Part shown: one piece after another, positions 4,161-7,021 of the stretch
Position numbering within the stretch: position 1 is the stretch's first letter
Layout: each line of letters begins with the position of its first letter
Assembly (NCBI GenBank): GCA_021813025.1
Contig: JAKAME010000005.1
Coordinates: 1 to 38,238, forward strand
Direction: 5' to 3'
Length of the DNA: 38,238 bases
Source: Microcaldota archaeon
GTDB lineage: Archaea; Micrarchaeota; Micrarchaeia; Anstonellales; Anstonellaceae
Position numbers and translations under genes: made by a program
Notes under the pieces: generated by a model
The model's input: the letters and a program-made list of their open reading frames with translations, nothing else
Told to the model about the DNA's origin: nothing
Database searches by the model: none

Positions 4161-4245
4161 GCAGGGGTAGCAAAGCTTGGTCAAATGCGCTAGCTTGAGG
4201 GGCTAGTGTCTTAGGACTTCGTGGGTTCAAATCCCTCCCCCTGCA
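4161..4245 (+). tRNA. tRNA-Leu(GAG), no intron
   Basis: Acceptor GCAGGGG/CCCCTGC + A; anticodon stem CTAGC/GCTAG with loop TTGAGGG; long variable arm; T-arm GTGGG-TTCAAAT-CCCTC (one T.T mismatch). Confidence 0.9.
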
Positions 4246-4665: not shown

Positions 4666-5097
4666 ATGAACATGAAAGTCATTGACGCAAAAGGACTGGT
4701 CGCCGGAAGGCTTGCCAGCCAGATAGCCAAGCAGCTGCTCTCGGGAGAGACGGTCTCGGTAGTGAACGTATCGGACGCATTGGTGTCCGGCACGCTCAAA
4801 TACGAGGTGGGCCGCCTCAACTCGCTCAAGCACCAGAAGAGCAAGCAGGACCCCGAGCGCTCGCCCAAATACCCGCGCATTCCCCACCTGCTCTTCAAGC
4901 GCATGGTGAGGGGCATGCTGCCCAAGAAGTCCAGCCGCGGCCGCGAGGCGCTGAAACGGCTGCGGGCCTATTCGGGCGTGCCGGTAACGGTTGACATGGG
5001 CAAGGCAGAGCGCTACGAGGCCATAGCCAAGAGGCCGCCCAAATCAACCACGCTTGGCGCGATGTGCAGGGCGTTCAGCTGGGAGCCGGCGGCCTGA
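4666..5097 (+). CDS. rpl13: 50S ribosomal protein uL13
   Basis: VIDAKGLVAGRLASQIAKQLLSGETVSVVNVSDALVSG...RMVRGMLPKKSSRGREALKRLRAYSGVP. Confidence 0.94.
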   Translation: MNMKVIDAKGLVAGRLASQIAKQLLSGETVSVVNVSDALVSGTLKYEVGRLNSLKHQKSKQDPERSPKYPRIPHLLFKRMVRGMLPKKSSRGREALKRLRAYSGVPVTVDMGKAERYEAIAKRPPKSTTLGAMCRAFSWEPAA

Positions 5098-5112
5098 ATA
5101 TAGGTGATTGCG

Positions 5113-5550
5113 ATGACAACTCCGAAGAAAACTTCCAAGTCCGCCAAGAAGAAGGGCGGCATAGTCACGCGCGGCAAGCGCAAGGAATGCCTTGCGCGAG
5201 CCTCCATACGCAAGGGGAAGGGCGCGGTGCGCATAAACTCCCTCGCGCTCGAGGCAATACCCAACCGCTACGCGCGCGAGCTCATCCGCGAGCCCATCAC
5301 CATGGCGGCCGAAATAGCGCCTGAAGTGGACATTTCGGTGAGCGTGGTGGGCGGCGGGCAGATGGGCCAGGCGCAGGCCGCGCGCATGGCGATTGCCCGC
5401 GCGCTGGTGGAATACTCCGGCTCGCCCGAATTGAAGGCGAGGATGATTGAGCGCGACAGGTTCCTCCTCGCCGAGGACTTCAGGCGCGTTGAGCCCAAGA
5501 AATACCTTGGCCCCAAGGCCCGCGCGCGCTTCCAGAAATCGTACCGCTGA
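5113..5550 (+). CDS. rps9: 30S ribosomal protein uS9
   Basis: GGGQMGQAQAARMAIARALVEYSGS...DFRRVEPKKYLGPKARARFQKSYR; GGTGAT SD at 5103. Confidence 0.94.
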   Translation: MTTPKKTSKSAKKKGGIVTRGKRKECLARASIRKGKGAVRINSLALEAIPNRYARELIREPITMAAEIAPEVDISVSVVGGGQMGQAQAARMAIARALVEYSGSPELKARMIERDRFLLAEDFRRVEPKKYLGPKARARFQKSYR

Positions 5551-5568
5551 GTTTGCGAGGTGGATTGT

Positions 5569-5766
5569 ATGTACTTCCCGGTCCGGTGTTTTACCTGCGG
5601 CGCCCCAATTGCCGACAAGTGGGATGACTACGAGTCGCGCGTCAAGGCGGGCAGCAAGGCTGCCGAGGCGCTTGACGAGCTTGGGGTGGAGCGCTACTGC
5701 TGCCGCCGCATGTTCCTCTCCCACGTCAATGTCATGGACAAAATCATGAAATACACAAAGCTTTAG
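5569..5766 (+). CDS. rpoN: DNA-directed RNA polymerase subunit N (Rpo10)
   Basis: MYFPVRCFTCGAPIADKWDDYESR...LDELGVERYCCRRMFLSHVNVMDKIMKY. Confidence 0.95.
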   Translation: MYFPVRCFTCGAPIADKWDDYESRVKAGSKAAEALDELGVERYCCRRMFLSHVNVMDKIMKYTKL

Positions 5767-5786
5767 GAGGACATGATTGCATTTAT

Positions 5787-5899
5787 GGGGCCATGGGCTA
5801 ACCTGGTAGACTACGTGCTTGGGGTGCACGTGATCCGAGTGTGGATTTGTCCCGAACTAACGGGATGCTCCGCCGGGAATTCAAATCTCGGTGGCCCCA
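5787..5899 (+). tRNA. tRNA-Pro(GGG) interrupted in the T-arm by a noncanonical 40-nt intron (5840..5879)
   Basis: Acceptor GGGGCCA(5787-5793)/TGGCCCC(5892-5898)+A; anticodon stem CGTGC/GCACG, loop TTGGGGT; T-stem CCGAG(5835-5839) pairs CTCGG(5887-5891) only if 5840-5879 is removed; complete BHB drawn (see findings). Confidence 0.88.
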
Positions 5900-6011
5900 T
5901 TTTATTGTCACAATAACAAAATAGGAAAAACAACCAAGCCGTCCCGAAAGTAGCCGTCGGAAAATTCTTTCGGCGAGCATTTGCGGGCTCCTTGGATAAA
6001 TGGTGAAAACT

Positions 6012-6941
6012 ATGGCACAGGAAGGATTTCTGATAAAGCAGGAGAAATATCTCGAAGCCGGCATCCACATCGGAACCAAGCTTCGGGTAATAGACATGAA
6101 CAAGTTCATCTACCGCACGAGAAACGACGGCTTGTTCGTTCTCGACCTTCGCAAAATAGACGAGCGCATAAGGCTTGCAGGAAAGCTCATGTCAAAATAC
6201 GCGCCTGAGGAGATTGTGGTCGTTGCCTCGCGCGCCTACTCCTCCATGGCTGCGCAGGCTTTCGGACGGGTTACTGGCGCGCACGTGATTGCGGGGCGCT
6301 TCGTGCCCGGCGCGTTCACCAACGTGCAGCGCGCCGACTTCGTTGAGCCAAAGCTTGTGGTCATCTGCGACCCCAAGGGCGAGAGGCAGGCGGTGCTGGA
6401 ATGCGGCAAGATGGGCCTGCCCACGGTGGGATTGTGCGACACGGACAACTACACCATGCACATCGACTGGGTGATTCCCTGCAACAACAAGGGACGCCGC
6501 TCTCTGGCCCTCATCTTCTGGCTGCTCGCGCGCGAGATGGCCATGGTGAACGGCAAGACAACTTCATACGACGACTTCAAGCCCACCCTGGAAGAGTTCG
6601 AGGCTTCGCTGAACGCGCCTGCGCCTGAAGCTGCAAACGCGCCTGCCGTGGATGCGGCCTCTGCCCCCCAGGCCCCGCTGATTGAGACCGAATCCCCGGC
6701 CGCAAGCGCAGCAGAAGTGGCGGAAGAGGTGGAGGAGGCAGAGGAGGAAGAGGAGGCCGAAAAGGCAGGAGCTGAGGGCAAGGAAGCTTCGGCCGATGTT
6801 GAAAAGAAAGAGGGCGAGGCAAAGGCTTCCGGCGCGAAAAAGCCCCGCGCGCCCCGCGCCAGGAAGGCCGAGGGAGGGGAGAGGAAAGAGCCCGAATCCC
6901 GCGGCAGGGCCCACAAGGACGAGGAAGGGAAGAAAGAGTGA
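6012..6941 (+). CDS. rps2: 30S ribosomal protein uS2 with about 110-aa acidic/Ala-rich then Lys/Arg-rich C-terminal tail
   Basis: YLEAGIHIGTKLRVIDMNKFIYRTRNDGLFVLDLRKIDERIRLAGKL...GRFVPGAFTNVQ...EPKLVVICDPKGERQAVLECGKMGLPTVGLCDTDNY...IPCNNKGRRSLALIFWLLAREM. Confidence 0.95.
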   Translation: MAQEGFLIKQEKYLEAGIHIGTKLRVIDMNKFIYRTRNDGLFVLDLRKIDERIRLAGKLMSKYAPEEIVVVASRAYSSMAAQAFGRVTGAHVIAGRFVPGAFTNVQRADFVEPKLVVICDPKGERQAVLECGKMGLPTVGLCDTDNYTMHIDWVIPCNNKGRRSLALIFWLLAREMAMVNGKTTSYDDFKPTLEEFEASLNAPAPEAANAPAVDAASAPQAPLIETESPAASAAEVAEEVEEAEEEEEAEKAGAEGKEASADVEKKEGEAKASGAKKPRAPRARKAEGGERKEPESRGRAHKDEEGKKE

Positions 6942-7021
6942 AGCGGCCCTTTCGCTTTTTCATTTTTTCCAATTTTTCCCGCTTGTTTTACGACGATAAA
7001 ATGCGCCTGGCACGGGCCGAG

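Follow-up and report, generated by a model that had tools for sequence, protein, structure and literature searches.

The window analysed here, the whole 38,238-nucleotide stretch, contains at 5787-5899 a real tRNA-Pro(GGG) gene whose T-arm is interrupted by an intron. The gene is very probably functional, with a transcript predicted to carry a 40-nt archaeal bulge-helix-bulge (BHB) intron at position 53/54 and to be spliced. A BHB intron in the T-arm is the best-supported reading of the locus, and relatives across Micrarchaeota have this same tRNA interrupted once or twice in its T-arm. In the 1.34-Mb, 99-contig, 78.7%-complete genome of the host, a small uncultured archaeon (G000), the window corresponds to contig C14; model and pattern searches served to survey the tRNAs of this genome.

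The interrupted gene and its junction

Features of the locus and its neighbourhood are as follows:
4161-4245, + strand: tRNA-Leu(GAG), intronless (ARAGORN), embedded in the same ribosomal protein (r-protein) gene cluster
5104-5550, + strand: ribosomal protein S9 gene (Pfam PF00380), upstream in the same cluster
5569-5766: 65-aa ORF, ending ~20 nt before tRNA-Pro(GGG)
5787-5899, + strand: intron-containing tRNA-Pro(GGG) gene, acceptor through discriminator A73
5787-5839, + strand: 5' exon, positions 1-53
5787-5793 and 5892-5898, + strand: acceptor stem GGGGCCA/TGGCCCC, paired; A73 is 5899
5814-5830, + strand: anticodon arm CGTGC-TTGGGGT-GCACG, anticodon GGG
5831-5833 and 5881-5883, + strand: BHB outer helix TGA/TCA, 3/3 pairs in the window gene
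5834-5837 and 5874-5877, + strand: BHB central helix TCCG (exon, positions 48-51)/CGGG (intron), 4 bp with one U-G, covarying in 41 genes
5835-5839 and 5887-5891, + strand: T-stem CCGAG/CTCGG
5838-5840, + strand: bulge 1, AG^T; 5' splice site 5839/5840
5840-5879, + strand: 40-nt intron at position 53/54, a site common to 41 genes
5841-5845 and 5869-5873, + strand: BHB inner helix GTGGA/TCCGC, 5 bp
5850-5865, + strand: intron-internal hairpin TCCCG/CGGGA
5878-5880, + strand: bulge 2, AA^T; 3' splice site 5879/5880
5880-5899, + strand: 3' exon, positions 54-73
5880-5886, + strand: T-loop TTCAAAT
6000-6941, + strand: rpsB, ribosomal protein S2 (Pfam PF00318), downstream in conserved synteny in most of the relatives examined

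The original prediction had read this locus as a tRNA-Pro(GGG) split by a T-arm intron with a canonical BHB and an internal hairpin, and every element, helix and bulge that it drew lies exactly where it was placed. Cutting after the second bulge base on each side, as it proposed, gives the 53/54 site: computed removal of the intron leaves a 73-nt tRNA with the T-arm CCGAG-TTCAAAT-CTCGG intact and restores the standard cloverleaf of the intronless orthologues, with one D-stem mismatch. This mismatch (D-stem, 5796-5811) is C12.A23 in the window tRNA and A12.C23 in the relative G001, while most relatives have a G-containing pair at 12/23; it could be tolerated or edited.

The junction comprises two 3-nt bulges on opposite strands, a 4-bp helix between them and flanking helices, which defines a BHB, and the 4-bp central and 5-bp inner helices occur together at the required places in only 0.027% of intron shuffles (0.00027). 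The insert is not a group I or II intron, being only 40 nt long and having no Rfam match at E<=1 (5000-7000), and the tRNA is neither split nor permuted, because its exons are contiguous and in order at 5787-5899.

The warning that annotation tools may miss this tRNA was borne out: ARAGORN reported no tRNA at 5787-5899, Rfam cmscan (E<=1, window 5000-7000) gave no match at the locus, and the tRNA-model scan of the whole genome did not recover the gene. Nor did an intact second tRNA-Pro(GGG), which would have told against the prediction, turn up in model and pattern searches of the genome, which at 78.7% completeness may still hold another copy; the Pro(CGG) and Pro(TGG) genes are intact.

The gap between tRNA-Pro(GGG) and rpsB is about 100 nt, with patchy sequence conservation across the genus, and the surrounding r-protein cluster also contains L13, S9, an RNA polymerase subunit D-like gene and tRNA-Leu(GAG). 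From its position and Cys pattern, the 65-aa ORF looks like rpoN. By its S2 protein, the window genome groups with LFW-29 (92% identity), which has been assigned to 'Ca. Anstonellaceae', order Anstonellales, Micrarchaeota (PMC8561730).

T-arm introns in relatives

Genes for tRNA-Pro(GGG) were gathered from relatives through their S2 neighbour and a sequence pattern; matches to AATCTGG...TTTGGGG in other families proved not to be tRNAs. Within Anstonellales, T-arm introns are present in 50/68 surveyed genes (53/54 alone in 17, the T-loop alone in 10 and both in 23), so that the description of T-arm introns as rare in archaea does not hold for this order, where most Pro(GGG) genes have one. The T-arm is intact in 18/68, most of them lacking any intron, and syntenic intronless orthologues with a TTCAAAT loop are present among the relatives. 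A third intron, at the anticodon, occurs in two genomes (G050 and G075), and in other orders of the class T-loop introns interrupt 7 of the 9 genes read, the shortest being 12 nt. On the S2 protein tree, the four intron states need 9 changes over 39 rows; introns have therefore been gained or lost repeatedly.

Among the introns recovered in the window's genus, those in the T-arm are confined to this isoacceptor. All the others lie at the anticodon, the anticodons and intron sites of interrupted genes having been read by eye. In a 92%-complete genome of the same genus (G002), the recovered isoacceptors have intact T-arms, with introns, where present, at the anticodon; only Arg(CCT) was not recovered there, and it is intact in the window genome. 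tRNA-Leu(TAA), absent from the model matches in both genomes, was suspected of a T-arm intron, and a pattern search revealed a normal T-arm together with a long intron at the canonical site. Leu(TAA) and Leu(CAG) (L359, L362 in G000; L363 in G002) carry long anticodon introns and are consequently overlooked or broken up by standard tRNA searches. Besides Ile(GAT), there is a tRNA with an intron at the canonical site that reading by eye assigns to Ile(UAU) (L028, G000:C80; L327, G002).

One account of this pattern, which we consider unlikely, accepts the introns as real and spliced and holds that they were gained to break an attachment site and thereby protect the r-protein cluster, the hotspot reflecting mobile-element pressure and not a tolerance of neutral introns. 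In PMC3293823, the gain of introns at tRNA attachment sites is indeed proposed as an integration defence, and the repeated origin or loss of the introns would fit. So would a tandem array that follows tRNA-Pro(GGG) in one relative (G001, L048:920-1350), with ~104-bp units and four copies of the tRNA 3' end, which points to insertion or duplication events that recurred at the end of the tRNA. However, this array occurs in one genome only, and in the window neither an integrase nor an element turned up at tRNA-Pro(GGG). The genus moreover has no T-arm introns in its remaining isoacceptors, although tRNA genes are generally integration targets.

Mechanistically, the T-arm BHB intron is nothing unusual for archaeal tRNA splicing: the intron is noncanonical, and the lineage has the broad-specificity type of enzyme. 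Noncanonical BHB introns have been described for Thermoproteales and further archaea rich in introns (Marck & Grosjean 2003 and Sugahara 2008, as cited in PMC11291895; PMC3218864; PMC8450103). The introns described here share with these the 3-nt bulges, the 4-bp central helix, the cut after the second bulge base, sites outside 37/38 and several introns per gene; whereas in those archaea noncanonical introns are distributed over many tRNAs, in the window's genus they are restricted to the Pro(GGG) T-arm and the rest of the introns recovered are canonical. BHB introns outside the anticodon loop also occur in Caldiarchaeum, the T-arm included (PMC3293823), and in the Asgard Atabeyarchaeia/Freyarchaeia (PMC11291895), but the accessible text of these two sources describes no isoacceptor-specific hotspot. 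Permuted tRNAs joined at 59/60, known from Thermofilum and Cyanidioschyzon (PMC3218864), have a BHB at the T-loop site that 14 relatives use here; in contrast to them, the exons here are in normal order. The recurrence in the T-arm of one isoacceptor appears to be new, no description having been found in the open-access literature searched.

Finders that assume an intact T-arm report the Pro(GGG) of this lineage as missing, and tRNA sets and codon-decoding inferences for Micrarchaeota are therefore distorted. The relatives moreover form a natural series at one syntenic locus with one enzyme type (no intron; 53/54; 58/59; 59/60; two or three introns; 12 to about 225 nt), which makes intron gain, loss and shift, and the removal order of two introns only a few bases apart, directly testable. 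It also raises the question why the T-arm of one isoacceptor was hit repeatedly, the genus's other tRNAs keeping the canonical site.

Covariation and predicted folding

The layout found in the window recurs in 40 relatives with compensatory changes, the pairing being conserved by compensation. Across the 41 genes with a 53/54 intron, the central helix is paired in 161/164 cells, compared with a mean of 70 and a maximum of 89 in 2000 sets of shuffled introns; all four central pairs form in 38/41 genes, that of the window among them. The compensatory exon/intron sets are TCCG/CGGR, TTCG/CGAA, TCTG/CAGA, TCCC/GGGA and CCCG/TGGG, and the inner helix runs for a mean of 4.2 bp versus 0.6 in shuffles. 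Watson-Crick pairs number 150 versus 114.6 (sd 4.4) after exchange of introns across genes, a control that ignores relatedness; since, in addition, the 3' boundary was picked among TTCAA matches partly by pairing, the size of the covariation effect is somewhat inflated, its direction not being in doubt.

The same data bear on whether the gene is alive. An insertion that disrupted an unused tRNA-Pro(GGG) copy would account for the failure of standard finders to recognise the locus and for the D-stem mismatch, but such a dead gene is very improbable: the exons are nearly invariant within the window's genus, the locus is the only Pro(GGG) gene found, and the covarying BHB, kept in 41 genomes, strongly disfavours it.

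In the isolated precursor (ViennaRNA, 37 C), a fold other than the BHB is predicted to have the lowest energy: it reaches -49.2 kcal/mol versus -45.3 kcal/mol with the BHB enforced, a gap of 3.9 kcal/mol, and the central helix has a pairing probability of ~0.03. The preferred fold pairs the intron's CCGGG with the 3' strand of the T-stem. CCGGG was dismissed as the 5' strand of the mature T-stem, since the loop would then have 9 nt and the TTCG/CGAA relatives do not conserve this arrangement. A fold with the T-stem paired and the insert looped out has about the energy of the BHB fold (both -45.3 kcal/mol), as a tRNA working unspliced with an enlarged T-arm would have it; this reading is very improbable, because changes in the T-stem 5' strand are matched by compensatory ones in the 3' strand of the intron, which is expected only if the BHB forms, and because the insert varies from 19 to 196 nt and is absent from some relatives.

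Splicing machinery and the predicted order of removal

Splicing of the T-arm BHB intron may proceed in the following manner: The 5' strand of the T-stem (48-51) would pair with the 3' part of the intron instead of with the T-stem 3' strand, creating the BHB. An endonuclease of epsilon2 type, presumably acting as a homodimer, would cut each 3-nt bulge (AG^T and AA^T), the acceptor stem would hold the exons together, and joining would most likely be performed by RtcB. The BHB uses the T-stem 5' strand and is thus mutually incompatible with the T-stem; splicing would therefore precede folding of the T-arm.

The genome encodes both EndA and the ligase RtcB. EndA has 400 aa, in agreement with the fused three-unit protomer of about 390 aa of epsilon2 enzymes, and its residues 2-400 align to 2-387 of ARMAN-2 EndA (PDB 4fz2; E=1e-125). 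Its Y235, H249 and K280 and the ASL lysine K160 align to Y236, H251, K282 and K161 of that structure, whose catalytic triad and ASL lysine have been assigned roles (PMC6379350). Judged by this alignment, the enzyme is of full-length epsilon2 (ARMAN-2) type, the broad-specificity class. The original prediction, which pointed to EndA architecture as a check, had held that the intron implies an endonuclease of relaxed specificity; the enzyme type fits, but the implication does not follow, because the window BHB is strict and by itself demands no such enzyme. Noncanonical tRNA introns and an epsilon2 endonuclease have been described for ARMAN-1/-2 (PMC4033280, PMC6379350, PMC12397907; PDB 4fz2, 9w2k), which belong to the same phylum and have an orthologous endonuclease with conserved triad and ASL lysine, whereas the window's host is placed in a different order, Anstonellales. 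Almost every genome of the order has a near-full-length EndA homologue; the exception is family f8, which gave short matches or none and whose sole recovered tRNA-Pro(GGG) is intronless.

The RtcB gene (G000:C13:17625-20348; L298, L299) is matched in two parts, residues 1-50 and 49-426, inside a single open frame of 959 aa; the in-frame insertion of at least ~450 aa is probably an intein. A second EndA-like protein of 223 aa with both EndA Pfam domains (L032:1456-2127:-, G000:C10) lacks the catalytic His and Lys in the window genome; of its aligned relatives (L279-L293), all have another residue in place of the His and most in place of the Lys. It occurs in 55/84 genomes of the order (E<=0.01) and is possibly a structural or accessory subunit; the literature surveyed contains no description of such a protein for epsilon2 enzymes.

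T-loop introns lie mostly at 58/59 or 59/60, three genes fitting 57/58 slightly better. The central exon strand is G53-C56 for 58/59 introns and 54-57 for 59/60 introns, the latter with the T-stem as outer helix. In 23 genes (e.g. L087/G010, L103/G058), two T-arm introns flank an exon of only 5-6 nt, and the central helix of the 58/59 intron reaches across the 53/54 junction in 20 genes with two introns. The 58/59 BHB needs nucleotides from both sides of this junction, and the 53/54 intron would therefore have to leave first. The lineage accepts introns in this arm repeatedly, and paired introns would be removed in order. Going further, we put forward only tentatively that the T-arm of the rpsB-adjacent tRNA-Pro(GGG) is a phylum-wide, isoacceptor-specific intron hotspot with a functional cause (e.g. 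splicing-coupled control of the r-protein cluster, or attachment-site blocking), where paired introns would be removed in obligatory order, possibly helped by the degenerate EndA-like protein.

An Rfam search with a conserved 58/59 intron returned nothing credible. In genus g22 (e.g. L096, L099, L101), this intron is nearly always 37 nt long; its stems differ between genes, whereas the loop stays near ACAAANACCTGCG, a pattern suggestive of selection on the loop.
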